Source: Bacteroidales bacterium (GTDB taxonomy: Bacteria; Bacteroidota; Bacteroidia; Bacteroidales; UBA10428). Taken from it: a stretch of 64,000 nt of DNA. How positions within the stretch are numbered: the stretch's first letter is position 1; every line of letters starts with the position of its first letter. Below the pieces are notes generated by a model, which worked only from the letters and a program-made list of their open reading frames with translations, was not told the origin of the DNA and did no database searches. The position numbers were made by a program, and so were the translations under genes. The stretch spans positions 62,001 to 126,000 of the forward strand of contig JAFGEO010000072.1 of NCBI GenBank assembly GCA_016931575.1, in the 5' to 3' direction. Shown one piece after another: positions 12,525 to 35,335 of this stretch.

Positions 12525-13817
12525 ATGGGAAAATTGAAAGTATTAATGTTTGGATGGGAATTTCCTCCTCATATCTCAGGAGGTCTGGGGACAGCCTGCT
12601 ATGGTTTAACCAGGGGTTTGAATGCTCTCGGGGGTATGGATATTTCATTTGTCGTACCCAAAGCCTTTGGTGATGAAGAGCAGAATCTCGTCCGCCTGAT
12701 CGGTGCAAATGAGGTGGATATGGGTGACCGATGGGTAGATTATAAAGCCTTCCTTTCCCAGATCAACTACATTGAAGTCGGCTCAAACATCATTCCTTAT
12801 ACCTCTCCGGAAGAATACCAAAAACTTCAGCAGGAGATTAAATCAGGAAATAAAAAACTTATCAATACAAGGTTCAGGGGGAAGTTTGAATTTTCAGGGG
12901 GATACGGCACAAACCTTTTCCAGGAAATATCGAATTATGCCATCGTTTCTTCCCAGCTTGCCAGGAACATGAAATTTGATATTATCCATGCTCACGACTG
13001 GCTTACGTATCCTGCCGGGATTGCAGCAAAGGAAGTGAGTGGAAAACCATTGGTAATTCATGTTCATGCCACGGATTTTGACCGGAGTGGCGGAAGTGTT
13101 AACCCCGGCGTTTTCGAAATTGAAAAACGGGGAATGGAAGTTGCGGACATGATCATTGCCGTAAGCAACCTGACCCGTAATACCATTATCCAAAACTATG
13201 GGATAGATCCTGATAAAGTTGTAACCGTTTACAATGCGGTTGAACCTGCAGAAAACTGGCTCCAGGCTGATAAGGGAAGGACAGGAAACGACAGGATCGT
13301 CACTTTTCTGGGTCGCGTTACACTGCAGAAAGGGCCGGAATATTTCATTGAGGCGGCCAACCTGGTATTGCATCACATGAAAAATGTCAGGTTTGTCATG
13401 GCCGGAAGCGGTGAACTTCTGGTACGTTCGATCCACAGGATTGCTGAGTTGGGCATTGGTAACCGTTTTCATTTTACAGGTTTTCTAAAGGGTGATGATG
13501 TCAAACGGATGTTTGCCCTGAGCGATGTTTACGTTATGCCCTCAGTATCGGAGCCTTTTGGAATTTCCCCGCTCGAAGCCATGCAGTCGAATGTACCGGT
13601 AATCATTTCAAGGCAATCCGGTGTTTCGGAGATTCTTCAACATGCTATCAAGATAGACTTCTGGGATATTCATGCAATGGCTGATGCCATTTACGGAATT
13701 CTTAATTATGACGGACTGTCCAAATTCTTCAGAAAGTATGGTAAATCTGAAGTGGATAACCTTAAATGGGAAAATACAGCCAGTAAAGTAAAAGATATTT
13801 ATGAATCGCTTCTCTAA
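12525..13817 (+). CDS. GT4 family glycosyltransferase (glycogen-synthase-like)
   Basis: Retaining GT-B glycosyltransferase of 430 aa. The start follows the glycogen synthase pattern (MFGWEFPPHISGGLGTA). HAHDWLTY lies at ~155-162, RVTLQKGPEYFIEA opens the donor domain, and SVSEPFGISPLEAM carries the E-x7-E pair (E343, E351). An upstream in-frame TTG at 12486 would overlap the debranching gene; ATG at 12525, 10 bases after its stop, gives the canonical N-terminus and is preferred. The order debranching enzyme-GT4-GH57 is a known arrangement in Bacteroidota. The donor (UDP- or ADP-glucose) and the product, alpha-glucan or a related maltooligosaccharide, cannot be read from sequence. Confidence 0.88.
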   Translation: MGKLKVLMFGWEFPPHISGGLGTACYGLTRGLNALGGMDISFVVPKAFGDEEQNLVRLIGANEVDMGDRWVDYKAFLSQINYIEVGSNIIPYTSPEEYQKLQQEIKSGNKKLINTRFRGKFEFSGGYGTNLFQEISNYAIVSSQLARNMKFDIIHAHDWLTYPAGIAAKEVSGKPLVIHVHATDFDRSGGSVNPGVFEIEKRGMEVADMIIAVSNLTRNTIIQNYGIDPDKVVTVYNAVEPAENWLQADKGRTGNDRIVTFLGRVTLQKGPEYFIEAANLVLHHMKNVRFVMAGSGELLVRSIHRIAELGIGNRFHFTGFLKGDDVKRMFALSDVYVMPSVSEPFGISPLEAMQSNVPVIISRQSGVSEILQHAIKIDFWDIHAMADAIYGILNYDGLSKFFRKYGKSEVDNLKWENTASKVKDIYESLL

Positions 13818-13836
13818 AAGCATCAAATAAGTAACG

Positions 13837-15333: not shown

Positions 15334-15367
15334 GCTTAGAGTTAAATTTTATAATAGTAAGAAAAAC

Positions 15368-18300: not shown

Positions 18301-19597
18301 ATCCAAGGAATGGAAGAAGATCTACCAGGAAATGTTCGATGGGAACTTTGTCGACAACCAGTCAAATTTTGATCTTTGGAAGCGGATTTACGACTATGAT
18401 GACAAGGTTATCTGGGATATTAAGCAGCGTTTGCGATCGCGGCTGATCTATGCTGTGAAGGAACGTTTTAAGGAAAACTGGATTAAGAGACACGAGGATC
18501 CCAAGCAAATTGTAGCCATCAATAATACCCTTTCGGATAAAAGCCTTACGGTGGTATTTGCCCGTCGCTTTGCCACCTATAAACGCGCCCACCTGCTCTT
18601 CAATAATCCTGAGCGACTCGCCAAACTTGTTAATAATCCGGACATGCCGGTACAGTTCATTTTTGCAGGTAAAGCACATCCTGCTGACAAAGCTGGCCAG
18701 GAACTTATTAAACTGATCACCAGTTACTCGAAGCGTCCCGAGTTTCTGGGGAAGATCCTCTTCCTGCAGAATTACAGCATTGGACTTGCCAAATTACTGG
18801 TCTCCGGAGCCGATATCTGGATGAATACCCCGACGCGTCCCCTGGAAGCATCAGGTACCAGTGGGGAAAAGGCTGTTATGAATGGCACCCTGCATTTCAG
18901 CGTACTCGACGGATGGTGGGTGGAGGGCTATCAACCTGATGCCGGCTGGGCTTTAACCAATGAAAGGACCTATGAAAATCAGAATTTTCAGGATAACCTG
19001 GATGCTGAGATCATATACAGCCTGCTTGAAAATGAAATTTTACCTGCCTTCTACAACCGGAACGATCAGGGATATTCTTCGGAATGGGTAGGGTTTATTA
19101 AAAATACCATTGCTGGAGTGTCTCCAAGGTTCACTACCCGCAGGATGATCAACGATTACACCAATCTTTTTTATACCAAGCAGTATAGCCGTTCACAGGA
19201 AATGCTGGCTAACGATTATGAGCTGGCCAAACGTATTTCTTCCTGGAAGCGCCGGATGGTTAGGTTCTGGAACGATATCGAGGTTATCAATGTGAAGATG
19301 TTTGAGAAGAATACCGATACCATTGATACCGGAACCGATTACGAGGGAATTGTGGAAGTCAACCTGAATGGAATTAATCCGGAACATGTGGGGATTGAGC
19401 TTGTTGTTACGGAGAACATGAAAGAACTGATCAATATTCATCCCTTCAGGCTGGTCAAGGCAGAAAAAGGTAAAGCCATGTTTAAGGTTATCATGACGAA
19501 TGACAGGCCGGGAACTTTTAGCTATGGTATCAGAATGTATGCCAAACACGACTTGCTGCCCCACAGGCAGGATTTTGCGCTGATAAAATGGATCTAG
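15368..19597 (+). CDS. glgP: Fused GT3 glycogen synthase and GT35 alpha-glucan phosphorylase
   Basis: Single 1409-aa protein joining glycogen synthesis and breakdown. Residues ~1-560 are a GT3 (eukaryote-like) glycogen synthase: FETSWEVCNQIGGMHTV at the N-terminus, AQFHEW, and EPWGYTPLE with the E-x7-E pair E436/E444. A short acidic linker (~560-575) follows. From ~580 a DUF3417 segment (HNIWWTWDDEAQ) opens an alpha-glucan phosphorylase with MEFGFHDSLKLYSGGLG, HSNEGHSAF, and EASGTSGEKAVMNG, whose lysine (K1168) is the expected PLP anchor. No stop codon or frameshift interrupts it. GT3 enzymes use UDP-glucose, so storage polymer synthesis may bypass ADP-glucose. Last gene of the glycogen operon, 34 bases after GH57. 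Confidence 0.92.
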   Translation: MSEKKNSPDFLFETSWEVCNQIGGMHTVLSTKAPSMVDEFNDKYIVIGPDLVQDSGENPEFIPDNELYADWRRFAEADGFRLKVGRWSVPGKPVTILIDFSDFFSKKDEIFAQLWEDFRLDSISGQWEYIEPALFGYSVGKIIESFIRFNLSNSDRIVAQFHEWMSGAGILYLKKTLPQVATIFTAHATVLGRTLSSHYRPLYDELKEYDPVALARELKVVSKQSLEKLSAGEADVFATVSDLTAMECEQFLQKKVDIILPNGFEDSYIPEPEILLENRETARNKMLGVASLLVSQKLPADAFIVATSGRYEFKNKGIDLFIDTISKLREKDLNRTVVAFLFNPTNNYGARKDLQEALNSGTLVNEGSDMVTHYLHDAEMDPILRRIKERGITNLDPKVKLFYVPAYLNGLDGIFNLTYYDILQGCDQTVFTAYYEPWGYTPLESIAFGIPSVTTTHAGIGRWIKEECDANCKALSIIERKGLDDEQITGKILEAILNLMSAGKEEREKIKDKAIHLSKTALWSSLISYYHEAISMALDHVTSRAGDFVDLGEKPSEPEHEELVPTGNEPKWKRIIVRSKLPNELEKMNTIIHNIWWTWDDEAQELFETIDPELWRASDFNPSILLEQVPYKRLQVLSKDAAYIARLDNVYARFEQYMKGREELKSPKIAYFSMEFGFHDSLKLYSGGLGLLAGDYLKEASDAKVNIVGIGILYRFGYFTQMLTTEGEQQAVYDYQHFSKIPISPVRDEDGEFMTTQIVLPGRIMYARVWHLNIGRIEMYLLDTDFELNTPEDRVVSHRLYGGDEENRLKQELLLGVGGTRALDKLGIHPDIFHSNEGHSAFCGLERMRILMINEQLTFSEAKEIIRASTLFTTHTPVPAGHDHFEEDLLRKYLGHYPNRLQITWDQFMALGRANPNNWKEKFNMSYLASNLAQDVNGVSMLHGAVTRDMFTDLWPGFLPEELHIGYVTNGVHWPTWTSKEWKKIYQEMFDGNFVDNQSNFDLWKRIYDYDDKVIWDIKQRLRSRLIYAVKERFKENWIKRHEDPKQIVAINNTLSDKSLTVVFARRFATYKRAHLLFNNPERLAKLVNNPDMPVQFIFAGKAHPADKAGQELIKLITSYSKRPEFLGKILFLQNYSIGLAKLLVSGADIWMNTPTRPLEASGTSGEKAVMNGTLHFSVLDGWWVEGYQPDAGWALTNERTYENQNFQDNLDAEIIYSLLENEILPAFYNRNDQGYSSEWVGFIKNTIAGVSPRFTTRRMINDYTNLFYTKQYSRSQEMLANDYELAKRISSWKRRMVRFWNDIEVINVKMFEKNTDTIDTGTDYEGIVEVNLNGINPEHVGIELVVTENMKELINIHPFRLVKAEKGKAMFKVIMTNDRPGTFSYGIRMYAKHDLLPHRQDFALIKWI

Positions 19598-21776: not shown

Positions 21777-22217
21777 TTATAACTTCTTAACAAAGGAAAG
21801 AATGCCAACAGCTTCACCTGCCTTTCCTTCTTTAAATGAAATGAAGATATGGTAGACGCCTGTTTTCTGGCATTTAAAATCAAAAAACGGAAAATCCTGC
21901 CCTGTATTCGGGAAGTAAGTGCTACCCTGGAGAACGTTCATATCAAAAAGTTGAAGATAGGCTTCACCTTCTGAATCAGGTGCAGTACAGATCGAGAATC
22001 GGTATTGAGTATTTTTACTCAGCACCATGGAAAATTTTGCGGATGGAGGATTTCCTCCGGGAACACCGGCATCCAATTTTACTACAAGATCTTTCAGATA
22101 GGTTACGTTGCCCGCCGCCGCAGCACATTGAGCAACAAGTTCAACATTATCCTGTGCAAAAATTTCAGAAGAAAGTAGAAACGTGGAAAGGAATATAAGC
22201 TTCAGGAAATTTTTCAT
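21777..22217 (-). CDS. Small secreted protein, unknown function
   Basis: 146-aa protein with a Sec signal peptide (KLIFLSTFLLSSEIFA, cleaved before QDNVE). The mature part is beta-rich with four cysteines in all (AQCAAA, FSICTAPD, FDFKCQKTG), which suggests disulfides or metal binding in the periplasm. The C-terminal GVYHIFISFKEGKAGEAVGIL resembles the last strands of small beta-sandwich domains. No family recognised. It starts 1 base after the preceding lipoprotein gene and is the last gene of the long signalling operon, before the terminator at 21731-21754. It may therefore be an extracytoplasmic partner or output of that system. Confidence 0.65.
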   Translation of the reverse strand: MKNFLKLIFLSTFLLSSEIFAQDNVELVAQCAAAAGNVTYLKDLVVKLDAGVPGGNPPSAKFSMVLSKNTQYRFSICTAPDSEGEAYLQLFDMNVLQGSTYFPNTGQDFPFFDFKCQKTGVYHIFISFKEGKAGEAVGILSFVKKL

Positions 22218-22218
22218 A

Positions 22219-23154
22219 TTAGATACTGGTTAGCTTGTTACGGATAATTTCAGTTTTCTGGATGATGTTGTTAAGTGTACTTTTTTCAATCGAAATTACG
22301 CTTTCATCTTTCTGTTCAATGGTAAGAACACCATCAATAACAACAGCCACAGGCTCACCCGGGATAACCTGGATCTCAACCTTATCAAATTCAGTTTTCA
22401 GTAGATTGACTTGTTCAACCAGCTGTCCGAAGTTTGGAAGATTACGATAATTATCAAGGATGATCAAGAGTTTTTCCAGAATTATTTTTTGTTCTCCTAT
22501 TCTTTCTTTAAGTGTTTCGCTGGTATTATCAACTTTTTGAAGATTACCGGCAACCTGGGTGATCAGATACATACTTTCGATCCAAACGCCCATGATCATC
22601 AGGGTGCTTAGTTCACTACGCTTGTCATCACGAAGGTACCGGTCCATCTGGTTAAAGCTGTGTACCGAGATATACATAAGAGAATCCAGATTCTGGTTAT
22701 TCTGTGCCAGTCGCTTCATGGTGGTGAAATCGAAAAACTGGCCAACCCTAACCTTATCAGCCAATGATTTAATAGCTGTAAGATACTCCATCACGGAGTT
22801 GGTCTTGTTGTACATATTCAGGTAACCAAGGTCCGCAGCATAAATACCCAGGTAGAAAGCCTGTTGATAAACGGATGTTAATTCATCAGCATTTGCAGTG
22901 GGTGCCAGGTATCGGGTAGAGAATTCGACCTTAAGATCCTTAAGCAGGGCAGCCATTTCTACAGGAGAAGCTATGTTTTCAATGAAGTCATCCATAACAT
23001 CACTTGAGATAGAAGGAGGCAGTAAAGAATCGACTCCCATTGAGATAGTATCCTTTATAGGCTCACGTTTTTTTCTATCGATCGTAGTATCGTTTGAGCC
23101 ACATCCAACAATCAGGACACCGGTAATAAAAAGCGAGATTATATTTCTTATCAT
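22219..23154 (-). CDS. Lipoprotein of the signalling operon, unknown function
   Basis: 311-aa lipoprotein; ATG at 23154 is preferred over an upstream start because it gives a clean SPII signal (MIRNIISLFITGVLIVGCG). The mature protein is mostly alpha-helical with phrases such as AFYLGIYAADLGYLNMYN and NLQKVDNTSETLKERIGEQ, and a hydrophobic patch (LMIMGVWIESMYLITQ). No known domain or catalytic motif was recognised. It lies 79 bases after the ABC transporter gene and 1 base before the small secreted protein gene. Periplasmic location next to an ABC transporter suggests an accessory or sensing role, which is inference. Confidence 0.65.
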   Translation of the reverse strand: MIRNIISLFITGVLIVGCGSNDTTIDRKKREPIKDTISMGVDSLLPPSISSDVMDDFIENIASPVEMAALLKDLKVEFSTRYLAPTANADELTSVYQQAFYLGIYAADLGYLNMYNKTNSVMEYLTAIKSLADKVRVGQFFDFTTMKRLAQNNQNLDSLMYISVHSFNQMDRYLRDDKRSELSTLMIMGVWIESMYLITQVAGNLQKVDNTSETLKERIGEQKIILEKLLIILDNYRNLPNFGQLVEQVNLLKTEFDKVEIQVIPGEPVAVVIDGVLTIEQKDESVISIEKSTLNNIIQKTEIIRNKLTSI

Positions 23155-23233
23155 AGCTTTCAAGATTTGCTCTAAATGGGTTACAAATGTAACAAGAACC
23201 ATAAAGATATTAAAAATCTGTTTTACTTAAAAT

Positions 23234-26200
23234 CTAATTTCTTTTAATTGGAATCCTGATCGATAACAACCTCCTCAGTACGTCGAAATAAAGCATAACG
23301 TAGAGCAGGGTGGTTAGGATCCAGATTACTACCATATTGAACCAGTATGTTTCAAAATACTGACCCCAGAAATGCTTTTTAGGGGCATACAGATGCGAAC
23401 GGAAACTAAGTTTATGTTCTGGCACCGGGTATTCATAGATGGGATCAATATGCTGGATAAACTGATTCTCATAAACGAGGATTTTATTCTTTTCATATAC
23501 CTTTTTCAGGATGTCAGCGATACCTTCATTGTAATAGTCATTGAACTTATCGTGATATGCTTTCTTTTTGGCAGTTCTCTTTTTCGGATCGGTTTCAAAG
23601 TCCCCGGTAGCTTTACCGACCATGTTCATGCGATACAGGTTGGCTTCTCTGAACAGGTTGCTATAGAAATTCTTTAGCGCTTCAAGGTAAGTTTCGAAGA
23701 GTTTGCACTCTTCGAGGCTAAAATTGTCAGGCGATATCTTATCAAGATCGAAGAAGTAACAATCCGTTTCACTGAAGCTTACGGCGTCTTTTACCGTTGA
23801 ATCAATGGCATTCAGGTAAAGCTGCGTCTGCAGCGTGTCCGTTTTCGAATTGAAGTCCATTTCAATCCGGTCCAGGCGCTGATTTTCCTTCCGGGCTTCA
23901 TGGATAAGCAATAGGATATTGTTCCTGAAGTTTTCGTTTTTCGGTCCTTTTTGCGCATTCTCACTTTTCTGAATGGTCTTTTTCACAGAATGCAGACTGT
24001 CGCTCATAGACGATAACCAGTATACTTTCTTGAAATCAGAGAAGCTTTCGATGCGTTCCACATCATAATATTCCCGGGTATGATCATTATACTTGAACTG
24101 ATGAACCATCAGAGCTTCATATCCCCATTTGGTAACCATCATTTCAGCAATAAAGGGAACCTTATCGACCCTTCCGATGGTCCGGTTAAGTTTGTCGAAG
24201 CTGAACATGGCACCGCTCAGGATCATCATGGGGATCATCAGGAGCGGGATCAGGATATAAATGGTCACGGCAGAATTAAAAGTAGCCGAGATATTCAGGC
24301 CTAGGAGGTTGGCAAAGGCAGCAGTAGAAAACAGGGCAAACCAATAGATGAACCCCATACCTTTAATTCCCAGAATGCTGTTGGCGATCAGAACGAAAAG
24401 AAATGTCTGTATTGCGCTAATGAGAAACAGGATAAAAATCTTTGAAATAAGGTAGCTGGACTTGCTTAGGTTAAGGAATTTTTCCCTTTTCAGGATCTTT
24501 CGGTCTTTCACAATTTCTTCGGCACTGACCATTAAACCCAGGAACAGGGCGACAATCAGGGACATGAAAATAAAGATATGGATGTTGCTGTTTTCCCTGA
24601 AAATATACTTATTCGAATTCGGATCTTCGATAAAGCGTATGAGGTATGAGAGGATAAAGCCTAGAACAGGGGCCTCAAGCAGGTTTAAAGTAACATACTG
24701 TGTATTACTAATTTTAGACAGAAAATCACGAATACCATAGATTCTCAGCTGGGTAAGCCAGTTTGGGATATTAAGGGATTTTGGAGGATTTTCGGTAATC
24801 TCCTTGACTTCTTCCTTTTTGAAATTGTTCAGGTAATGCTCTTCCCACTTCTCGGGGGCTACCTTCCGGAGATCAGTATAGTTACCGAATTCATCGACCA
24901 CATGCGCTTCGATGATGTTAAAGAGGAGTTCCGGGTTTACATTACCACAGGTAGGGCATTCGCCGACCTCGGAGTTAATCTGGGCGTCCATCCGTTTGAA
25001 ATACATTACGCCCTCTACGGGATTTCCGCAATAGATGAGATACCCGCCTGTATCGAGGATAATCATCTTGTCGAACATCTTGTAGATATCGGAAGAAGGT
25101 TGATGGATGACTACAAAGATCAGCTTGCCTTTCAGACTGAGTTCCCTCAACAGGTCCATCACGTTTTCTGAGTCCCTGGAGGAAAGCCCGGAGGTAGGTT
25201 CATCCACAAAGAGGATGGAAGGTTCACGGATCAGTTCCAAGGCAATATTCAGTCTTTTACGCTGACCCCCGCTGATGGTTTTTTTCAGGGGAGAACCCAC
25301 TTTCAGGTCTTTTCTGTCAAGGAGTCCCAGGTTGGTCAGTGTTTTATGGACGAGGTCGGTAATATCCTTGTCTGATTTATCCTTGAAACAGAGTTTTGCG
25401 TTATAGTAAAGGTTTTGAAATACCGTAAGTTCTTCGATGAGCAGATCGTCCTGTGGGATGAGACCAATTACACCCTCAAGTTTTTCCTTTTCTTTATGCA
25501 GGTCAATGCCATTGATGATAACTTCACCTGTGGTGGGCGTGTCAATTCCGGATAGTACATTCAGGAGCGTGGTTTTTCCGGCACCACTGGCTCCCATAAT
25601 ACCGATCAGGCGGCCATGACCTTCGGAGAAGGCTATGTTGCGAAGGCCCAGGTTTCCATTAGGAAATTGGAAGCTTAGATCGCGAACAGTATAGGATATC
25701 TTGCTGGAGGTAATATCCGCCATAAAGTGTGCAACAACATCGCTGTAATAAACAGGTGCTCCCTTGGGAAGTTTTACAGTGCTGCCGTTGGCATAGAGGT
25801 ATATACGTGAATAATTGATCGGTAATCCATTAAGGAAAAGCTCTTCATTTCCGGTATACTTTAGGAAGTAGAGATCAACGCTCTGAATCCGGAGGATGAA
25901 AATGTTACCATCCAACTGTTTGGTAGTGATGATTTTAGCATGCTTAAATTTTTCCTTCTGATCATTAATAATCAGGATGTTCTCGTTGTCAAGTTCTGAA
26001 AATTCATTTTTGACAACAAAGGATTCAATGCTGCTAAATTCTTCCTGGGTAATATTAAACACTTCGGCAACCGTATTCAGGATTGCCATACGCTGATCTG
26101 TAAATTTCCGGTCGGCATTAATGATTTCAAAAAGCCGCACCAGGGCTACCACTTTTTGTTTTTGGGTCAGGGTTTTGTTGATTTTCTTACACAGCCCCAG

Positions 26201-26434
26201 AATCCGTACAGAATCTTTTACAGATGTGAGCTTATTCTTTTTAGGCTCCTCTGCTGTTTCACTCAGTCCTGCATGCTGCTCAAACAGTGCATAATACTCA
26301 GATACTTTTTCTGCCGTTAGCTGTTGCTGCAGAAAGTTCTTTACGTATTCGACCTGGGTTGATTCAACACCTTCATCTTGTTTTGCCACAATGGCAAACA
26401 ACTGCATCAGAGCTTTTAGAATTTCCTCACTCAT
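23234..26434 (-). CDS. Large ABC transporter (ATPase-permease fusion) with TerB-like N-terminal domain
   Basis: 1066-aa ABCG-like half-transporter. Residues ~1-135 are helical and TerB-like (LMQLFAIVAKQDEGVES, NADRKFTDQRMAIL). A beta-rich stretch ~150-240 may be FHA-like, as in other bacterial ABC-2 fusions. The ATPase follows: Walker A GASGAGKTT at 281-289, signature ISGGQRKRL at 387-395, Walker B ILFVDE at 407-412. A CPTCGNVNPELLF motif follows the ATPase. Helices at ~590-790 form the ABC-2 membrane domain, interrupted by a long charged soluble extension before a final helix (VVIWILTTLLYVMLYF). It is 36 bases downstream of the SiaC-like gene, an unusual partner. The substrate is unknown. 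Confidence 0.85.
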   Translation of the reverse strand: MSEEILKALMQLFAIVAKQDEGVESTQVEYVKNFLQQQLTAEKVSEYYALFEQHAGLSETAEEPKKNKLTSVKDSVRILGLCKKINKTLTQKQKVVALVRLFEIINADRKFTDQRMAILNTVAEVFNITQEEFSSIESFVVKNEFSELDNENILIINDQKEKFKHAKIITTKQLDGNIFILRIQSVDLYFLKYTGNEELFLNGLPINYSRIYLYANGSTVKLPKGAPVYYSDVVAHFMADITSSKISYTVRDLSFQFPNGNLGLRNIAFSEGHGRLIGIMGASGAGKTTLLNVLSGIDTPTTGEVIINGIDLHKEKEKLEGVIGLIPQDDLLIEELTVFQNLYYNAKLCFKDKSDKDITDLVHKTLTNLGLLDRKDLKVGSPLKKTISGGQRKRLNIALELIREPSILFVDEPTSGLSSRDSENVMDLLRELSLKGKLIFVVIHQPSSDIYKMFDKMIILDTGGYLIYCGNPVEGVMYFKRMDAQINSEVGECPTCGNVNPELLFNIIEAHVVDEFGNYTDLRKVAPEKWEEHYLNNFKKEEVKEITENPPKSLNIPNWLTQLRIYGIRDFLSKISNTQYVTLNLLEAPVLGFILSYLIRFIEDPNSNKYIFRENSNIHIFIFMSLIVALFLGLMVSAEEIVKDRKILKREKFLNLSKSSYLISKIFILFLISAIQTFLFVLIANSILGIKGMGFIYWFALFSTAAFANLLGLNISATFNSAVTIYILIPLLMIPMMILSGAMFSFDKLNRTIGRVDKVPFIAEMMVTKWGYEALMVHQFKYNDHTREYYDVERIESFSDFKKVYWLSSMSDSLHSVKKTIQKSENAQKGPKNENFRNNILLLIHEARKENQRLDRIEMDFNSKTDTLQTQLYLNAIDSTVKDAVSFSETDCYFFDLDKISPDNFSLEECKLFETYLEALKNFYSNLFREANLYRMNMVGKATGDFETDPKKRTAKKKAYHDKFNDYYNEGIADILKKVYEKNKILVYENQFIQHIDPIYEYPVPEHKLSFRSHLYAPKKHFWGQYFETYWFNMVVIWILTTLLYVMLYFDVLRRLLSIRIPIKRN

Positions 26435-26470: not shown

Positions 26471-26851
26471 TTATCCTGAATAAGGAACTTGTTCAAAGGG
26501 AACATCAACAATATCGGCATACTCCTCGCCGGCTTCTTCCATATCCTCGTCATCTTCCGGGAAATGCCAGCGAATAAGCACATCATTGCCGTTTTCGTGG
26601 ATTTCTTCCAGTTTCATCAGGATGTCAAGTAATAATTTTGAAGAAGCTGTATTAAAATATACCAGCTTAAAGTTGAAGATTGTTTTTGGATTGGGATCCT
26701 GAGCATACTCCTCAAGCCATGATAAAACCGGGTCATAAAAGGAGGCTACATCCTCGGGTAATGATCGCCCGGATATTTCCATAAGTTCAGTTTCCTTATC
26801 CAATGTTACCTTGGGTGTATCTTCAGTTCCTTGAATTTTGATAGTTTCCAT
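26471..26851 (-). CDS. SiaC-family regulatory phosphoprotein (DUF1987)
   Basis: 126-aa cytoplasmic protein of the DUF1987/SiaC family. SiaC is a switch protein phosphorylated by the kinase SiaB and dephosphorylated by the phosphatase SiaA in Pseudomonas. The family motifs are present: TPKVTLDKETELMEISGRS, EDVASFYDPVLSWLEEY and the central VYFNTASSKLLLDIL. Its Thr 68 sits at the same motif and number as the phosphorylated Thr reported for SiaC. The C-terminal end is acidic (EDDEDMEEAGEEYADI). Kinase- and phosphatase-like genes lie immediately upstream. No diguanylate cyclase, the known SiaC target, is encoded nearby; the ABC transporter is the nearest downstream gene. Confidence 0.85.
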   Translation of the reverse strand: METIKIQGTEDTPKVTLDKETELMEISGRSLPEDVASFYDPVLSWLEEYAQDPNPKTIFNFKLVYFNTASSKLLLDILMKLEEIHENGNDVLIRWHFPEDDEDMEEAGEEYADIVDVPFEQVPYSG

Positions 26852-26867
26852 AGCTACGCTTTTTGTT

Positions 26868-27449
26868 TTAATTATCCTCTCTTGAGATAGTCGAAGTTAA
26901 TAAAAAGAATGATGTATCGTTTGAAATGGGAAGGAAGTGATATTCCAGTTCTTTTCCGGTCTTTCGTTTAATATCAATGAAACCAAGACCGGCACCGCCC
27001 TTTTCGGACAGACGGCCCTCTTTCATTTGTTTTTTGTAGAGGCCTTTAAGTTCATCTTTGTCCATTTTATTAATGGTTTCCAGCATATTTGTCAGTTCCT
27101 CAATTTTGTCATTTTCTACTGCATTTCCGGTCGTGACACTATACTCATTTTCTCCTTTACTAACCAGGAATATTCCTCTTCCGCTGAAAAGGAAATCGCT
27201 CGAAGTAAAATCGTCAGCATGTTTACTTATGTTTTGAAGACACTCAACCATAACATGAAATACTTTCCGCTGTACATTGCCAGATTCATCTTCTTTGGCC
27301 ATGTTCGATTCAGTTAACGAAGTAAATGCCTTAGTGATTTGGTGTGTTATTTCACCTTCATACACCAGGGTGATTTCATGGGCCTTCATGGATTTGTAGA
27401 ACTCATAAACAAATTCAAGAAAGCCTTTTACATCTTTTTTATTGTCCAT
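26868..27449 (-). CDS. SiaB-family protein kinase (GHKL-fold)
   Basis: 193-aa protein resembling SiaB/DUF6272 kinases, which phosphorylate the SiaC-like switch protein. Visible features are the helix FLEFVYEFYKSMK, the VMVECLQNISKHADD segment corresponding to the N-box of GHKL ATPases, and the glycine loop EKGGAGLGFIDIKRKTG for nucleotide binding. The start ATG at 27449 is chosen because a start at 27488 would overlap the phosphatase gene and adds no family sequence. It is followed by the SiaC-like gene after 16 bases and preceded by the phosphatase after 22. The gene order phosphatase-kinase-switch mirrors siaA-siaB-siaC. Confidence 0.8.
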   Translation of the reverse strand: MDNKKDVKGFLEFVYEFYKSMKAHEITLVYEGEITHQITKAFTSLTESNMAKEDESGNVQRKVFHVMVECLQNISKHADDFTSSDFLFSGRGIFLVSKGENEYSVTTGNAVENDKIEELTNMLETINKMDKDELKGLYKKQMKEGRLSEKGGAGLGFIDIKRKTGKELEYHFLPISNDTSFFLLTSTISREDN

Positions 27450-27471
27450 AATACACCTGTTTTTATTATCA

Positions 27472-30096
27472 TTAAAACTCAATGCCAATCAGCAAAACAT
27501 CGTCAATAGGTTTGTTATCACCCATCCAAGCCATGAAGTCTTTCGCAAAGAAAGTATTAAATTCATCCATAGTCAAGTCCTTATTCTCAACAATGTTTTC
27601 ACGGATTCTTTTAGGCGAATATTTCTTTGTTTCCGGTCCGCCAAGCTGGTCAGTCAAACCATCAGAAAAGAAGAATATTTTATCACCGCTCTGGATGTTT
27701 ATCACATAGTTGGTAAAATCTTTCTCGGGCTTCTTTCTGTGCGGGATCCCTCCAATAGCTTTGCGGTCGCCTTTAAACTCCTGCAATTCACCGTCGCGAA
27801 GCATATAGAGTGGGCGGTGAGCGCCAGCAAACTGCAATTCATTCTTTTTAAAATTTATCTTACAAAAGGCAATATCCATTCCGTCACGTGCTTCCGCATC
27901 ATTATCTTCCTGCTTTAGGGTTTTCCGCACGGCATAATGGAGGCCGTCAATAATATCGGAGGCTGTGTGCTCACCCGGGTGGTCGGCTATATTATTGAGG
28001 AGGAAATATCCGATAAATGAAAGCAGGGCACCGGGAACTCCATGTCCTGTACAATCGACAGCAGCGATATAAATATTGTCATCCTTCTTCATGTACCAGG
28101 GGAAGTCACCGCTCACCACATCACGAGGGCGGTAGAAAATGAATGACTTGGGAAGATCCTGGCGAATGACTTTATTATCGGGAAGGATGGAAGTCTGGAT
28201 GCGTTGAGCATAGTTGATGGAATCTTCGATTTTCCGGTTTTTGTCCTGAATTTCCTGCTCGATCCGTTTGGCCTCGGTGATGTCGTGACCCACAAAAAGT
28301 ATTGTTTCCAGTTCATTCTCATTGAATTCAGGGATGGCGTTAAAGCTCATGATGCGCTCGTCTTCATCCTTACCCTGGATTTTGGCAGGTATGGTGATCT
28401 CTGCTGTTGTCTTCTGTGGATTGGTTTTAATTTGTGCGATGGTATCGCGGAAATAATTAAAGAGCACGTCAACAAAGTTTACCTCGTTAAGGGTTTTGTT
28501 AATCAGGTCCTTTGTATCAATGCCTGTATAGGTTTCCACAACAGGGTTTGCATAGAAGAATTGCCCTACTGTTGACAATCGCAGGATCATATCCAGTGAG
28601 TTTTCAGACAGGGCCTGCATTTTACTGCGCATACGTTCCTCTTTTTCCGCACGCTTCCGCTCGGTGATATCGGAGGAGTTGAGGATGATACCTTTAATCG
28701 CAGGATCTTTCAGGAGGTTACGGCCGGTAGTTTCCAGAAATATCTTCTGGCCGTTTTTCTTCATGTAAGTATACTGGATGGAAACAGGTTCGCCCGGATT
28801 GGCAAGAAGTTGTTTAAACATCTGGCGCATAGCATTCTCGCCCTTACGGGTGAGCCGATCCATGTCTTTTCCACCCATCATCTCTTCAGGGGTATACCCC
28901 AGGATCTTGATTACTGACGGACTTTCATAGGTCAGTTCCATATTTTCGCTGTAGATGGAAATGATCTCGGAAGCATTTTCAAGCAGCGAGTAGAGACGTT
29001 TTTGGGCGTTTTCAACCTTCTGGATATTTGCTTCCAGCTGTTCGTTGGATTTTTGAAGCTCTTCCTGTGTTGCCCGCATCTCCTCAGCGTTTTGCCGCAG
29101 CTGTTCTTCATTTTCCTGAAGCTCAGCAGTCATTTTCTGAGATTCATGGAGAAGTTGCTCGGTACGCTGGTTCACCTTCAGGTTAAAGATGGTTCTGGCA
29201 ATGATTTCACCAAGCTCGATCAGGAAGCGAATGGACTGCTCAGGAATCTCTTTATCTGTGGAAGCAAATTCGAGTACTCCCTGCAATTTTTCATCAGAGA
29301 TCAGGGGAACCAGTAAGAGGCTCCGGGGTTTTTGATCACCCAGGATGCCGGAAGTTATCGTGACATAATCATCCGGAATTTCGTTCCGGTAGATGTATTC
29401 CATTTCATAGGCACAGGCTCCGATCAGGCCGTGCCCAAGCTTAAATTCCTGGTTAATGAATTTTGTACGGTTATAGGCGTAGGTGGCTACGTTTTGAAGT
29501 ACTTTCCGGTTCTCGTTATAGAGGTAAAGGGCTCCCTGAACGAGGTTAACATACCTGACAAGTGAATGGATCACTTTGTTCGAAAGCTCGTCAATCTTGC
29601 TGTTCGTTCTCAGAATATCGGATACAATCTCCTTTCCTTCTGTTATCCAGCTTTGTTCAGATTCTTTTTTATGGTTGGCCAGGAGGTTCTCCCGCATGAT
29701 CAACAGCGATTGTGCGAGTGCATCATCTTTACTTGCCAGGTTCAACGTGGTACTGTAATTACCCTCACCAATCTGTTTGGCAAATTCAGCCATCTCCTGG
29801 AGTCGGGCATCCCGGTAGCTTAACTGTTCATCGAAATCGGAGGCTATGGTCTTCTGCCTGTAATAGGTAAATGCGACAAGTGCAATGAATACCAGGGGGA
29901 CAAGATCAGCTATGTACAGGGCCGGATTGTTTTGGTGGAGCTGAATTAGTGCATCAAGCCTGACCGGACTGTTATGCTTTGCAATTTCAAAGATCCAGGA
30001 AAGAATCGGTAATAAGATACCAATAAAGATTGCGATGGGGAGGGGATTCGAATCTTTACCGAAAAATTTGGTATGTAAGTCCAAAAGTTTTGACAT
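27472..30096 (-). CDS. SiaA-like sensor phosphatase: TM-GAF-coiled coil-PAS-PAS-PP2C/SpoIIE
   Basis: 874-aa membrane-bound phosphatase. Two N-terminal helices (IAIFIGILLPILSWIF; LVPLVFIALVAFTYY) precede a GAF domain (~160-315). A Glu/Gln-rich coiled coil spans ~313-357 (ENEEQLRQNAEEMRATQEE). Two PAS domains follow (EIISIYSENMELTYESPS; LSTVGQFFYANPVVETYTG). The SpoIIE/PP2C domain carries the metal-binding motifs VVSGDF, AAVDCTGHGVPGAL and FFSDGLTDQ. ATG at 30096 is preferred over 30141, which would overlap the upstream gene. By position and domain it is the likely dephosphorylating partner of the SiaC-like protein. Its input would be small ligands or redox through GAF/PAS. Confidence 0.85.
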   Translation of the reverse strand: MSKLLDLHTKFFGKDSNPLPIAIFIGILLPILSWIFEIAKHNSPVRLDALIQLHQNNPALYIADLVPLVFIALVAFTYYRQKTIASDFDEQLSYRDARLQEMAEFAKQIGEGNYSTTLNLASKDDALAQSLLIMRENLLANHKKESEQSWITEGKEIVSDILRTNSKIDELSNKVIHSLVRYVNLVQGALYLYNENRKVLQNVATYAYNRTKFINQEFKLGHGLIGACAYEMEYIYRNEIPDDYVTITSGILGDQKPRSLLLVPLISDEKLQGVLEFASTDKEIPEQSIRFLIELGEIIARTIFNLKVNQRTEQLLHESQKMTAELQENEEQLRQNAEEMRATQEELQKSNEQLEANIQKVENAQKRLYSLLENASEIISIYSENMELTYESPSVIKILGYTPEEMMGGKDMDRLTRKGENAMRQMFKQLLANPGEPVSIQYTYMKKNGQKIFLETTGRNLLKDPAIKGIILNSSDITERKRAEKEERMRSKMQALSENSLDMILRLSTVGQFFYANPVVETYTGIDTKDLINKTLNEVNFVDVLFNYFRDTIAQIKTNPQKTTAEITIPAKIQGKDEDERIMSFNAIPEFNENELETILFVGHDITEAKRIEQEIQDKNRKIEDSINYAQRIQTSILPDNKVIRQDLPKSFIFYRPRDVVSGDFPWYMKKDDNIYIAAVDCTGHGVPGALLSFIGYFLLNNIADHPGEHTASDIIDGLHYAVRKTLKQEDNDAEARDGMDIAFCKINFKKNELQFAGAHRPLYMLRDGELQEFKGDRKAIGGIPHRKKPEKDFTNYVINIQSGDKIFFFSDGLTDQLGGPETKKYSPKRIRENIVENKDLTMDEFNTFFAKDFMAWMGDNKPIDDVLLIGIEF

Positions 30097-30106: not shown

Positions 30107-30883
30107 TTATTTAGACTTTTGAATTTGTACAATTTTTTCACCGGAACTTAACCCGATTTTATTGAAAAGCTCTGTCCAATATTCCATATCATCTTTAATA
30201 AAGGTAGCAATTTCAATGATACCAATAGAACTCTTTTTATGGATAATTGGAATGATAATGAGTGTTTCAGGCTTTGCTTTTCCTAATCCGGATTCAATGG
30301 TAAAATACGTTTCAGGAATATCCCGGATTATCATTACTTCTTGTGATGCTGCTGCCTGCCCGTTAAGGTTTTCACCTGCTTTAAAACCTGCAGGTTCTGT
30401 CTCCCCGGTTAGTGCGAAGCCGGACACAAACTTAAATTCGTTCCCCTGCTGAAGATAGACTGCTCCCAGGGATCCCTGGATTTCGTTTGACAATTGCACG
30501 AGTAATTTTTGTGCAAAAGCATTGGCATCCTTAAATCTTCCTGTCGGAATGATTTTGTTCAGCATCTCCTCCAGGTCTTCATTTTTGTTAATAACTTCTT
30601 CAACTTTCGATTCGGATTCGGCCATGATTTTGGCTTTCTCCACGTCAAGCTGATCCTGAACCTGTTTTTGGATCAGTCGGGGATCGATAAGCTTTCCGGT
30701 CAAAATATACAGGTATCCGACGCAAGCCAGCGCGATGGGTAAGAAGATAAACGGCCAGGCTGAAAAGTGTACACCATTGTTTGACCCCTGATTCCAGAAA
30801 GAAGCTGAGAGAAGGAGAATCGATATCACAGTCGCCAGGCTTGCAATAATCAGTTGTATTCTATGTTGGTTGCCCCAATTCAT
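30107..30883 (-). CDS. Membrane-anchored GAF-domain protein
   Basis: 258 aa. Two N-terminal membrane helices (IASLATVISILLLSA; FIFLPIALACVGYLYIL) are followed by a charged coiled coil (~75-110) and a GAF domain (~120-250; LSNEIQGSLGAVYLQQG, TLIIIPIIHKKSSIGIIEIATF). No output domain follows. The GAF strand pattern is close to that of the downstream SiaA-like phosphatase, so the two may have arisen by duplication or work as partners. It starts 2 bases after the CheB-like gene, and the phosphatase gene starts 10 bases after it. It is probably a sensor or scaffold subunit of this operon. Confidence 0.8.
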   Translation of the reverse strand: MNWGNQHRIQLIIASLATVISILLLSASFWNQGSNNGVHFSAWPFIFLPIALACVGYLYILTGKLIDPRLIQKQVQDQLDVEKAKIMAESESKVEEVINKNEDLEEMLNKIIPTGRFKDANAFAQKLLVQLSNEIQGSLGAVYLQQGNEFKFVSGFALTGETEPAGFKAGENLNGQAAASQEVMIIRDIPETYFTIESGLGKAKPETLIIIPIIHKKSSIGIIEIATFIKDDMEYWTELFNKIGLSSGEKIVQIQKSK

Positions 30884-30885
30884 AT

Positions 30886-31443
30886 TTATAGTTTTTGGAG
30901 GAATCTAATTATTTGGTCAGTCGAATATACGTAGTCCACTTTTGTAAGTTGCAGCGCCGATTCAGGCATGGTCTTCACTTCACTCTCAGTCGGATCCTGA
31001 ACAATCGTGACCCCTCCGTTATCAGCTACTTTTTTAAGTCCAAAAGCGCCATCCCTGTTGGCGCCTGACAGGATAATACCGATCAGCTTATCCCGGTATG
31101 CATTTGAAGCAGTGATAAAGGAAAGATCGATGGAAGGTCTGGAGTGGTTTACAGGTTCGTCAGTTGAAAGCGCTATCCGGTTAGCCAGCTCAACAAACAT
31201 ATGGTAGTTTGCCGGGGCCAGGTATGCCTTCCCCGGCTTCAACTGCTCCTTATCACAAGGTTCCAGAACCGGGATATTGGATTTAAGGGACAGAGCCTCC
31301 ACAAAGCCTGAGCGGACATGTTTCAGGCGGTGCAGGCACAACATTACCGGAAGGGGGAAAGTTGGATTGAGCGAGTTAAGAATTCTCGTCACAATCTGAA
31401 AACTCCCTGCAGATCCACCGATGATCAAGGCTCTGTACTTCAT
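30886..31443 (-). CDS. cheB: CheB-type methylesterase without receiver domain
   Basis: 185-aa stand-alone CheB catalytic domain. The Ser-His-Asp triad is readable: GGSAGS (S11), LCLHRL (H38) and SGANRDGA (D131). The supporting segments GKAYLAPANYHM, RPSIDLSF and QDPTESEVKTMPESA are also canonical. The family hydrolyses methyl-glutamate or deamidates glutamine in chemoreceptors. The usual N-terminal receiver domain is absent, so activity would not be controlled by CheA. No chemoreceptor, cheA, cheW or cheY is found in this window. It follows the degenerate CheR gene by 2 bases, which implies translational coupling. Confidence 0.9.
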   Translation of the reverse strand: MKYRALIIGGSAGSFQIVTRILNSLNPTFPLPVMLCLHRLKHVRSGFVEALSLKSNIPVLEPCDKEQLKPGKAYLAPANYHMFVELANRIALSTDEPVNHSRPSIDLSFITASNAYRDKLIGIILSGANRDGAFGLKKVADNGGVTIVQDPTESEVKTMPESALQLTKVDYVYSTDQIIRFLQKL

Positions 31444-31445
31444 AA

Positions 31446-32276
31446 TTATTTAATTCTTCTTTTATAAACACTTTCACTGGGCACTACCTCCTCAAAGAGG
31501 GTAATTGAATTTTGCTGGCCGGCAAGACATTCCTGTAATCCGATTATAAAAGTACCATTTGCAGAGAGGGAATCATACACCTTTCCGAGTACATATTCCT
31601 GGTATTTTGGATTAAAATAGATCATCGCATTCCTCATCAGGACAAGTTTCACATTTTTAGGATGGTTATCCAGGCTTAGGTTATCCCGGATAAATTCAAC
31701 ATTCTCGATCAGAGAGGAATTCCGGTAAGCATTATATTTTTCATTCCGGAAATAATCGCTGAAATCATATTCTCCCTGGAAGCGCTTATAGTTTTCCATA
31801 GAGACTTCAATTTTCTTCAGGGGATATTCACCTGACCTGACCAGTTTGAGGGATGCATCGCTCAGGTATGAAGCGTAAACTTTTACCCTGTGCGTCAGGT
31901 TGAGCTCTTTAATCAGGATCGCCAGGGTATACAGTTCGCTTCCCGAAATACAGAAGGGGACCCAGATCTTAAAATTCATAATGGATTTTTCGTCCAGCTT
32001 GCCGAAATATTCTTCCCTTATCCATCGCCAGACTGAAGGATCCCGGAACATTTCTGTTGAAGGAACCAGTAGCTGATGGATGAAGGTATCGAAGAAATCC
32101 TTCTGATCCAGCAATTTTCGGTATAAGCCTTCGGGACTGACCAGGTTGTTTTTGGCAATAATATGTTCAAGCCTGTACTTCAGTGAAGTAAGCGCAAAAT
32201 TCCCCAGGTCAAGTTGAAAATTGTTATTGACCAGTCTGATAATTTCCCGTATATCAACAATACCAAGTTCTGTCAT
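31446..32276 (-). CDS. CheR-like protein with degenerate SAM-binding site
   Basis: 276 aa, CheR fold along its full length: N-terminal helical part (SLKYRLEHIIAKN, PSTEMFRDPSVW) and a Rossmann part. The SAM motifs, however, are broken. The AGCSTGEE loop reads PFCISGSE at 107-114, the acidic ATD(L/I) strand end reads ASYLS at 135-139, and the late CRNVxIYF reads MRNAMIYF at 214-221. It probably no longer methylates and may regulate or dock the intact CheR encoded two genes upstream (34496-35335). Between them lies the transmembrane GAF/PAS sensor. It is followed by cheB with a 2-base gap. Confidence 0.85.
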   Translation of the reverse strand: MTELGIVDIREIIRLVNNNFQLDLGNFALTSLKYRLEHIIAKNNLVSPEGLYRKLLDQKDFFDTFIHQLLVPSTEMFRDPSVWRWIREEYFGKLDEKSIMNFKIWVPFCISGSELYTLAILIKELNLTHRVKVYASYLSDASLKLVRSGEYPLKKIEVSMENYKRFQGEYDFSDYFRNEKYNAYRNSSLIENVEFIRDNLSLDNHPKNVKLVLMRNAMIYFNPKYQEYVLGKVYDSLSANGTFIIGLQECLAGQQNSITLFEEVVPSESVYKRRIK

Positions 32277-32295
32277 GCCTTCCCTGGGTTGTAAG

Positions 32296-34476
32296 CTATT
32301 TATTCAGGTTCATGATATTCAGGATGCGCATTGTATGTCCATCCCTGGATTTAATCGGAGAGAAGGTATTCTTCATCTCCAGTTGTTTCTTATTGATTTG
32401 AACCGTTTCTGTTATTTCTATCGTTTTTCCTTCTGCAACATTGGCAAAGAGCAGTGAGTCAGCCCTGCTTTTTTTGCCGAACACCTGGATATGGGTTTTT
32501 CCAATCACCTGATCCGCATGTTGGTTAAGAAGGTAGAGTAGCCGCTCATTAACCTTAATGATACTTCCATCAATATCGTACTCTACCACATAAAATGCCT
32601 GACCGATGGCGGAGATTATACCTTCCAGATCTTCTTCCCTGCGGGCAGATTCCTCCTGTGTTGCTTTCAGTTCTTCCATATTCTGCCTCATTTCCTCTTC
32701 TTGTTCCGCCATCTCTGCTGCCTGCTGTTGTGATTTTTCCAGCAATTCTGAAGTGCGGGAATTTGCCCGTGCATTTATTATCGAGGAGGCCAGGCTTTCA
32801 GAGATAGTTTCTCCCAGTTCGATCTGGTTATGATCAAAGGGTTTCAGAGAGGCAATTTCAAGCACTCCTATTAATACCCCTTCGTGCATCACGGGTAGGA
32901 TAAGGAGGTTGTTTGGGGGTGCATCGCCCAGACCTGAAGTGATTTCGATATAGTCATCGGGTAATTTTGTCAGGTATATGGTCTTTTTCTCCTGGGCACA
33001 GGTCCCCACCAGGCTTTCACCTTTCCGTATTTCTTTGCTAAGGTATTTTTTCCGGTTATAGGCAAAAGCTGCTTTAAGGTGAAGGATTTCATCGTCCTCA
33101 TTGTTGAGTAGAAAGAGCCCGCCCTGTATAGCGTTCAGGTATCGGACAATTTCCTTAATGAAGATATCCGCGAGTTTATCCAGGTTGTCCGAATTACTCC
33201 GCATGATATCGGAGAATTTGGCAATACCTTCGTTCTGAAATCGGCGGATGCGGTTTTCTTCATGGTATTTCAATTGTTCATCGCGGGCTTTGCGCATGTT
33301 TTCTTTCAGCGCGATTAGCGTTTTTCCAAAGGTATCATTCCTGCCCTGAAGGTCGATATCGGCCTGAAACTTTTGTTTCAGCAAGCTATCCACAAATCTT
33401 TTTTTCTCCGTCAGTGAAGCATGGATAGTATTGAGATTGGAATTGAGGCTTACGAACTCAGCCGCTCCCTCCAATGTCACTGGCTCAAGATTCAGTTTGC
33501 CCTTTGCCAGGTTCTGGCTATACTGAATGGATTGCAGCAGGGGCTTGCGGATCTGGTTGAAAAACAGGTAAGAGATGAAAAGGAAACCCAGGGAAAGGAG
33601 CAGGATGAAACCTAAACCAATGAGAAGCACGGCGGATCTCGCTTTGTTCATCTCGTGATTCCAGCTGTTCTTGAAAGCAAGATAGTCTGCCATCATTTTT
33701 TGATAGTCCTGTTCCATGGTGCCGAAAAGACTTTCTTCCACAGCTTCATCTCCCAGGCGCTGGGAAAGGGCCTGGATTTCTTCCAGAGCGGTCTTGTACT
33801 CCGTTAGCTGCGCATTAAGCTCCGAGCTTAAAAATGGGTCTGCCTCGTACAGGGAAGGGTGAGAAAGTATATCGTTAAGGATACCGAGGATTTCATTAAA
33901 GGCCACATAGTTACCCGCAAACAGGTATTCAGATTCAAGTTTTTTCAGCTGGGAGAATAGCTCTCCCACCCTTGGCAGGTTCAGGGTATAAATCGTATTT
34001 CCTGCTTCCGTTGAAATATTCCTGAGAGCCAGTATTTTTCCGCTGTTCCTTGCGCCACGTTCCTGCATGGCGAGCCTGGTCTGGTCGAAATCAATGCTGT
34101 AGTTCTCAATGGCGGCTTGCAAGCTATCCTTTTTTCCGGATTTCTGCAATTTTTTCCGGATACCCGGCTTCTCAGAAAGTTGATTCAGAGAATCGAGCAC
34201 TGCAGCCGATTGGTAATCAAATTTCAGAGTGAAGTCATTTTCAGCATCTATAAAAAATCGATCGTTTGGTCCGGTGCTTTGCAGGAAGCTGAGGTAAGTG
34301 GAATGCAGACCGGTAATGTCCCGTTCTAGGCGAATCACTTTGGTAGTTGTCTGCTGAAATTCAGAAAGCTGCCCGTTCATCAGCAAAATGGTGCCGGTCA
34401 AAATGCCCAGATATACCACAAAGATGAATACCTGCAGCAGGAATTTGTATTGAATATGAATTGATTTTAAATTCAT
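32296..34476 (-). CDS. Transmembrane sensor: helical periplasmic domain-HAMP-GAF-coiled coil-PAS
   Basis: 726-aa receptor-like protein. TM1 is at ~12-32, an all-helical periplasmic domain of ~245 residues follows (four-helix/CHASE3-like; many Leu heptads), and TM2 is at ~280-303. A HAMP-like linker (NQIRKPLLQSIQYSQNLAKG) leads to a GAF domain (~415-560), an E/Q-rich coiled coil (~580-609; AEQEEEMRQNMEELKATQEE) and a final PAS domain. There is no kinase, MCP hub, cyclase or other output. It lies between the two CheR-type genes, so it is the most likely methylation substrate; the E/Q-rich helix would be the place to look. This is inference. Confidence 0.8.
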   Translation of the reverse strand: MNLKSIHIQYKFLLQVFIFVVYLGILTGTILLMNGQLSEFQQTTTKVIRLERDITGLHSTYLSFLQSTGPNDRFFIDAENDFTLKFDYQSAAVLDSLNQLSEKPGIRKKLQKSGKKDSLQAAIENYSIDFDQTRLAMQERGARNSGKILALRNISTEAGNTIYTLNLPRVGELFSQLKKLESEYLFAGNYVAFNEILGILNDILSHPSLYEADPFLSSELNAQLTEYKTALEEIQALSQRLGDEAVEESLFGTMEQDYQKMMADYLAFKNSWNHEMNKARSAVLLIGLGFILLLSLGFLFISYLFFNQIRKPLLQSIQYSQNLAKGKLNLEPVTLEGAAEFVSLNSNLNTIHASLTEKKRFVDSLLKQKFQADIDLQGRNDTFGKTLIALKENMRKARDEQLKYHEENRIRRFQNEGIAKFSDIMRSNSDNLDKLADIFIKEIVRYLNAIQGGLFLLNNEDDEILHLKAAFAYNRKKYLSKEIRKGESLVGTCAQEKKTIYLTKLPDDYIEITSGLGDAPPNNLLILPVMHEGVLIGVLEIASLKPFDHNQIELGETISESLASSIINARANSRTSELLEKSQQQAAEMAEQEEEMRQNMEELKATQEESARREEDLEGIISAIGQAFYVVEYDIDGSIIKVNERLLYLLNQHADQVIGKTHIQVFGKKSRADSLLFANVAEGKTIEITETVQINKKQLEMKNTFSPIKSRDGHTMRILNIMNLNK

Positions 34477-34495
34477 AATTGTATAGAGTGTTTAA

Positions 34496-35335
34496 CTAGC
34501 TTTTATAGTAAGCATGTCCTTTCTTTTGAAATTTTACCGAATATGATCCAAGAATGGTTTCATGCATTCCCAGGACCAGTGCTCCATTGTCGTACAGGTT
34601 TCTGTGGAAGAGGTCAAATACCTTGCTTTGAAGGTTGTAATTAAAATAGATAATGACATTTCTGCACAGGATCAGGTCAAACTTCACATACAGGGTGTTT
34701 CCCTCCTTTACAAGATCATGTTTCTTGTAGATTGGTTTTTCCCGAAGCATGTTACACATCTGAATGGTATCTGAGGGTTTGTCAATGGTGAAGTACTTTT
34801 CATAGGGCACGTCATAATACTCTTCGTAGTTATAGGGATTTTCCTTGATGACTTTGTCAAAATTATCCAGGTAACCTATGTTAAAACGATATTTGTATTC
34901 TCCCTTTTGAGCCTGAGCAATAACATCCTCATTCAGGTCGGTGGCATAGAGCTTTGTTTTCTCCAGTAGTCCCATTTCATTCAGAACGATCATCATCGAA
35001 TACACTTCCTGCCCGGTTGAGCAGCCGGCATGCCAGATGTTGATAACGGAGTTGTTTTTCAATTTTGGGAGAATGGCATAACGCAGGGCATGCCAGACCT
35101 GGGGATCGCGGAACAGTTCGGTGGTATTAACGGTGATCTCCTTGATAATTTTTTCCACAAACTCCTGATCATTCTTGATCTTACTGATTAAAATGTTCAG
35201 GGTCATTTTATTGTCAGCCAAGATTTTTGTAAGTCTTCTTTTAAGCGATTTCTCAGAATACTCACTAAAGTCATATTTGGAAGAAGTCTTTAAGGCGTAT
35301 ATGAATAATTGAAAATCCTGGTCTGTTACCGTCAT
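34496..35335 (-). CDS. cheR: CheR-type protein-glutamate methyltransferase
   Basis: 279-aa methyltransferase with intact SAM-binding motifs: AGCSTGQE at 103-110, YATDLN at 130-135, and CRNVIIYF at 224-231. The N-terminal CheR domain (ELFRDPQVW) is also present. The enzyme would transfer methyl from SAM to glutamates on a receptor. It is the first gene of the long minus-strand operon; a candidate -7 box lies at 35449-35456. The next gene, a transmembrane sensor, starts 19 bases after its stop. No chemotaxis kinase or adaptor accompanies it, so the target is probably the GAF/PAS sensors of this operon. Confidence 0.92.
   Translation of the reverse strand: MTVTDQDFQLFIYALKTSSKYDFSEYSEKSLKRRLTKILADNKMTLNILISKIKNDQEFVEKIIKEITVNTTELFRDPQVWHALRYAILPKLKNNSVINIWHAGCSTGQEVYSMMIVLNEMGLLEKTKLYATDLNEDVIAQAQKGEYKYRFNIGYLDNFDKVIKENPYNYEEYYDVPYEKYFTIDKPSDTIQMCNMLREKPIYKKHDLVKEGNTLYVKFDLILCRNVIIYFNYNLQSKVFDLFHRNLYDNGALVLGMHETILGSYSVKFQKKGHAYYKS

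Follow-up and report, generated by a model that had tools for sequence, protein, structure and literature searches.

Organization of the locus and identity of the Sia-like proteins

We analyzed a 64,000-nucleotide stretch of the genome of a Bacteroidales bacterium (contig JAFGEO010000072.1, positions 62,001 to 126,000; hereafter the window, whose numbering is used throughout), in which three genes resembling siaA, siaB, and siaC of the Sia partner switch are followed by an ATP-binding cassette (ABC) transporter gene. These genes belong to a run on the minus strand extending from approximately 35335 to 21777, in which neighboring genes are separated by no more than a few tens of bases, in the order CheR, a membrane coiled-coil/GAF/PAS protein, CheR, CheB, a GAF protein, the phosphatase, SiaB, SiaC, the ABC transporter, a lipoprotein, and a secreted protein. 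The siaA-like gene (27472–30096, minus strand; the longest open reading frame starts at 30141) encodes a GAF-PAS-PAS-SpoIIE/PP2C phosphatase with N-terminal hydrophobic segments, the siaB-like gene (26868–27446, minus strand) a GHKL-type kinase with DUF6272, of 192 amino acids from its ATG, and the siaC-like gene (26471–26851, minus strand) a switch phosphoprotein of 126 amino acids. A preliminary description had correctly placed these three genes at 26471–30096. The transporter gene (23234–26434, minus strand; 1066 amino acids) lies beyond that interval, yet it is the next gene after siaC, at a distance of 36 nt, and it occupies the place where siaD would be, as had also been claimed.

The SiaC-like protein matched PF09345 (E = 1.8e-42), and its predicted phosphorylation site, Thr68 in the motif FNTASSK, aligned with Thr68 of Pseudomonas aeruginosa SiaC (6kko/7e6g); this threonine was kept in 76 of the 77 aligned SiaC proteins from transporter loci. 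The SiaB-like protein scored 174.8 bits against the NCBIfam SiaB-family kinase model NF038262 (cutoff, 85) and matched PF19788 (E = 6e-43), and a conserved glutamate aligned with Glu61 of P. aeruginosa SiaB (6kko chain A), the predicted catalytic residue (PMC7647112). The SiaA-like protein matched PF07228 (E = 5e-17), and the metal-binding aspartate motifs SGDF, DCTGHG, SDG, and DD were present. The profiles and alignments therefore agreed with the preliminary description in the nature of the PP2C phosphatase and of the SiaB-like and SiaC-like proteins, in the position of Thr68, and in the siaA-siaB-siaC order. Against the NCBIfam equivalog models for SiaA, SiaB, and SiaC, the scores were below the cutoffs (165 vs 700, 83 vs 225, and 91 vs 150 bits, respectively); by that rule, the three proteins are therefore members of the families and not orthologues of SiaA, SiaB, and SiaC. 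The set has the sequence features of the SiaABC partner-switch family, namely a SiaC with Thr68, a SiaB with the glutamate, and a PP2C phosphatase with the aspartate residues.

Conservation of the siaB-siaC-transporter arrangement

When named genomes were scanned with the N-terminus of the transporter as the query, at least 80 loci were obtained, all of them in Bacteroidota or Chlorobiota and most in Bacteroidales, including Labilibacter marinus, Carboxylicivirga linearis, and Anaerophaga thermohalophila. The siaC gene lay directly 5' of the transporter gene in 74 of the 76 loci with upstream sequence (gap, 12–169 nt), siaB preceded siaC in all 74 (gap, 1–54 nt), and a PP2C gene was next beyond siaB in 67 loci. 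Both CheR and CheB were present in 54 of 68 loci, and on the 3' side of the transporter a lipoprotein gene was found in 71 and a secreted protein gene in 69 of 71 loci. Because the loci were picked by transporter similarity, this linkage was measured inside one orthologous group. Some Carboxylicivirga loci had no adjoining Che or phosphatase genes, yet siaB, siaC, the transporter, the lipoprotein, and the secreted protein were retained.

In a sample of 198 genomes of the order, SiaC occurred in 87, the transporter in 86, and both in 81 (Fisher p ~1e-41, uncorrected for ancestry). The co-directional arrangement with siaC 5' of the transporter was found in this sample at no fewer than 41 loci from at least 26 families, and a second transporter paralogue or clade, convergent to its own siaB-siaC, at no fewer than 30 loci from at least 21 families. 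Since the gene order was kept over at least 26 GTDB families, the arrangement is far beyond chance. It is ancient, and the full operon was also present in two genomes of another order of the class (L173 and L174). Operon conservation and co-occurrence indicated a strong functional linkage between the Sia switch and the transporter, and they lend strong support to the earlier suggestion that the switch acts on this other partner.

Absence of GGDEF proteins and multiplicity of SiaC

To our knowledge, the Sia switch has one known output, the diguanylate cyclase in Pseudomonas. A search for GGDEF (PF00990) in the window's genome (4.8 Mb, 98.3% complete) gave no match, whereas of 14 control genomes examined in the same way 8 were positive. 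In the order sample, GGDEF matched in six genomes, one of which also had SiaC, and 86 of the 87 SiaC-bearing genomes were without GGDEF. The view that no diguanylate cyclase accompanies this Sia switch is thus well supported, and because the switch lies in a conserved operon with the transporter, in genomes that for the most part lack such a cyclase, it probably controls transport directly.

The window's genome encoded 18 SiaC-family proteins compared with five SiaB-family kinases. The residue at the phosphorylation site was threonine in 11 of the SiaC copies, serine in five, alanine in one (L025), and aspartate in one (L022). Contamination (4.35%) was rejected as the origin of these copies because all 23 genomes of the window's family hold 6–21 of them. 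Most of the paralogues in the window's own genome (L011–L027) had no adjoining kinase or phosphatase gene, and two adjoined PAS hybrid histidine kinases (L020 and L023).

The surroundings of SiaC genes also bear on an alternative in which SiaC acts on an unlinked or neighboring signaling protein, such as a histidine kinase, the coiled coil of SiaA, or a different sensor, co-transcription under the same stimulus being all that ties the transporter to it. Paralogues of this genome that adjoin the hybrid histidine kinases or PP2C proteins (L016 and L018) instead of a transporter fit this alternative, as do a SiaC operon with a stalk-histidine kinase (L169, see below) and the distances among SiaC proteins, for which the closest correspondence was with those of the phosphatase (partial correlation, 0.34). 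However, the linkage to the transporter is repeated in two orientations and two clades, siaBC stays by the transporter where the phosphatase and Che neighbors are absent, and the stalk partner was not found in the window's genome. We therefore regard this alternative as unlikely and favor the transporter as the output of the switch.

Exchange between stalk proteins and the transporter

In other siaB-siaC operons, the siaD slot was occupied by a coiled-coil stalk protein with a motif such as ITRISDSTQ. SiaD binds SiaC around Ser82 and Gln86 (PMC8457831), and the stalk motif ([IM]T[KR]I[SG]DxxQ-type) resembles this SiaC-binding part. The stalk was fused to GGDEF (L167 and L168, which show the canonical order of siaB-siaC and then a GGDEF gene elsewhere in the phylum), to a histidine kinase (L169), to PP2C (L188), to a class III cyclase (L189), and to a membrane segment (L176, L180, L182, and L186). 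In L189, the SiaC operon encodes at 886–1749 a partner in which the SiaD-like stalk is joined to a class III adenylate/guanylate cyclase.

A stalk search in the window's genome and family gave no match; an order-wide search covering genomes known to hold the stalk served as the positive control. Among the SiaC-positive, transporter-negative genomes of the order, the stalk was found in five of six, the sixth genome being 74% complete, and this suggested that stalk and transporter replace each other. Three of these five genomes contributed sequences to the stalk profile; the other two, compared with two clear stalk genomes among the 81 transporter-positive ones, gave a hypergeometric p of ~0.005, calculated by hand, so that exchange remained the favored reading.

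The SiaC proteins grouped by partner in a phylogenetic tree of low resolution. Position 69 was alanine in all 26 SiaC proteins linked to a co-directional transporter and serine with all stalk partners examined, serine also occurring in the type b class of convergent transporters, and position 107 was alanine in 36 of 36 transporter-linked proteins and threonine, serine, leucine, or asparagine with stalks. Both positions touch SiaD in P. aeruginosa (PMC8457831), and they likely set the choice of partner.

The occurrence of a class III cyclase in a SiaC operon of the order, together with a window genome that is 98% complete and not closed, leaves some room for a switch that still drives a cyclic-nucleotide enzyme, either a GGDEF protein that is divergent or was missed or a class III cyclase encoded at another site in the genome. 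This is very improbable, as a GGDEF match was absent from the window's genome and from all but one of the SiaC genomes of the order, and a stalk-bearing protein was not found in the window's family.

Domains of the transporter N-terminus

The transporter comprises a TerB domain (residues 1–141), a predicted FHA fold (148–240), a nucleotide-binding domain (~250–470), and an ABC-2 membrane domain (~560–780), and its C-terminal part contains a large variable insertion (~781–1020) and the last transmembrane segment (~1029–1054). The preliminary description had called the N-terminus TerB-like, which holds for the first domain; however, TerB does not stand alone, as the predicted FHA fold follows it. 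Residues 1–248 were modeled with AlphaFold2 from an alignment of 69 rows, and the model was confident (predicted local distance difference test [pLDDT], 89; predicted template modeling score, 0.87). The first modeled domain was helical and TerB-like, with 2h5n and 2ou3 as the best structural matches. For the second domain (~148–240), the matches were almost all FHA structures (5yyz, Z = 7.2, root-mean-square deviation of 2.3 Å over 77 residues); although Z values near 7.2 can arise from a common arrangement, the FHA fold is supported because the FHA matches were consistent. The model thus predicts an N-terminus consisting of TerB and a divergent FHA fold. Pfam did not recognize the FHA region of the transporter, and the motifs (Gly-Arg and Ser-x-x-His) of the canonical phosphothreonine pocket (Arg, Ser, His/Asn) were not evident among its conserved columns.

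FHA domains are phosphothreonine readers. The FHA fold of the transporter might accordingly read phospho-Thr68, in which case the phosphorylated SiaC would dock, with a polarity the reverse of that between SiaC and SiaD. Such a reading would agree with the FHA structural matches and with the control of a mycobacterial ABC transporter in this way (PMC5549992), but the fold is unseen by Pfam, the pocket motifs are not evident, and Thr68 of SiaC sits at the start of a helix and not in a loose peptide (PMC7647112). We consider docking of phosphorylated SiaC improbable, even more so than an action of SiaC on another signaling protein.

Proposed mechanism

These results led us to consider it fairly probable that the locus encodes a Sia-type partner switch with the ABC transporter, not cyclic di-GMP (c-di-GMP), as its output. 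SiaB would phosphorylate SiaC at Thr68, and the SiaA-like membrane PP2C phosphatase would strip the phosphate from SiaC, its input coming from its own GAF/PAS domains and probably also from the upstream CheR/CheB/GAF genes. SiaC in one of its two forms (the unphosphorylated form, by analogy) would bind the TerB-FHA N-terminus that the neighboring transporter exposes to the cytosol and alter the transporter's activity or assembly; the lipoprotein and small secreted protein encoded 3' would act together with the transporter. We infer that SiaC most likely gates the transporter directly, through its TerB-FHA module.

Several observations weigh against this proposal. The co-occurrence and adjacency are confounded by common ancestry, and operon neighbors can be co-expressed and no more. 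A third clade of TerB-FHA transporters (L194–L207) usually has no adjoining siaC, with the lipoprotein gene near in most cases; the N-terminus may therefore have other roles, and a transporter of this kind need not be linked to siaC. When the SiaD-like stalk profile was compared with the transporter N-terminus, hhalign returned a probability of 0.1%, that is, no similarity, and co-evolution of distances with SiaC singled out neither TerB nor FHA (partial correlations, 0.03 and 0.15, respectively).

The TerB helix 72–88 had seemed to match the stalk, with Cys82/Asn86 set against Ser82/Gln86, and this match was dropped given the null profile comparison. In the third clade, the lipoprotein gene is often upstream, sometimes together with the secreted protein gene, and in L196 a SiaB gene adjoins that for the lipoprotein.

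More tentatively, Bacteroidales may possess a general c-di-GMP-free SiaC layer with up to ~20 SiaC proteins per genome and few SiaB kinases, in which the best-linked branch would gate TerB-FHA ABC exporters and the other branches would control kinases, cyclases, phosphatases, and membrane proteins through the exchangeable stalk. DUF1987 proteins in general have been suggested to modulate adjacent proteins (PMC8457831). That idea gains a concrete conserved case here, namely an ABC transporter of bacteria that lack diguanylate cyclases, and the exchangeable stalk found elsewhere adds to it. A SiaC gene alone is no evidence for c-di-GMP signaling, and SiaC and the transporter form a named, testable partner pair. 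The open literature yielded nothing relevant on SiaC/DUF6272 systems in Bacteroidetes or on TerB-FHA transporters.

Other genes of the operon and its surroundings

The gene conserved 3' of the transporter (22219–23202, minus strand; start likely near 23154) encodes a lipoprotein with the lipobox LIVGC. Its model (22222–23058) was helical and confident (pLDDT, 90), and a fold search of this model against the PDB gave no useful match; the protein possibly represents a new fold. The conserved last gene (21777–22217, minus strand) encodes a small secreted protein of 146 amino acids with a signal peptide-like start and without a Pfam match.

Upstream of the phosphatase gene, also on the minus strand, are genes for a membrane GAF protein (30107–30883; PF13185), which is a conserved neighbor, a CheB methylesterase domain protein (30886–31443; PF01339, E = 7e-48), a CheR methyltransferase (31446–32276; PF01739), a membrane coiled-coil/GAF/PAS sensor protein without a recognized kinase domain (32296–34476), and a second CheR methyltransferase (34496–35335; PF01739, E = 1e-36), probably the first gene of the operon. 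Coiled coils (EEMRQNMEELKATQEE-like) in this operon head (30107–35335) could serve as methylation substrates, and CheW-domain proteins are encoded elsewhere in the window's genome. Promoter and terminator scans showed no excess over shuffled sequence. The region is flanked by genes of alpha-glucan metabolism at 10559–19597 and 51029–53047, encoding glycosidases, glycosyltransferases, a phosphorylase-like fusion, and a branching-enzyme-like protein.

Comparison with known systems

The locus shares with the SiaC-stalk operons described above the order of siaB-siaC and then the partner gene, several of those operons also having an upstream PP2C gene; a SiaD-like coiled-coil stalk is present on their partners, whereas none is recognizable on the transporter. 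Like the Rv1747/PknF/Rv2623 system of Mycobacterium tuberculosis (PMC3908365, PMC5549992), it encodes an ABC exporter with an N-terminal FHA fold and a kinase in the operon. The likeness to Rv1747, an FHA fold ahead of the nucleotide-binding and ABC-2 membrane domains, is one of predicted fold only. One FHA domain of Rv1747 is bound by phosphothreonine-bearing Rv2623 (PMC5549992), a universal stress protein, which sets a precedent for the proposed switch; the corresponding regulator here would be SiaC. Unlike the transporter here, Rv1747 has a pair of FHA domains, of which the first carries the canonical pocket residues, and a TerB domain has not been reported in it; its kinase PknF is of the Hanks type whereas the kinase here is of the SiaB type.

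With the P. aeruginosa SiaABCD system (PMC7647112, PMC8457831), the locus has in common a PP2C phosphatase, a SiaB kinase, and SiaC in the same order with the partner gene directly 3', as well as Thr68, the SiaB glutamate, and the PP2C metal ligands. It differs in the CheR/CheB/GAF genes on its 5' side, in a genome without GGDEF, in scores under the NCBIfam equivalog cutoffs, and in the sensor part of SiaA, which is GAF-PAS-PAS here and HAMP there. The partner is the diguanylate cyclase SiaD in P. aeruginosa, whereas in the window the presumed partner is a TerB-FHA ABC transporter.

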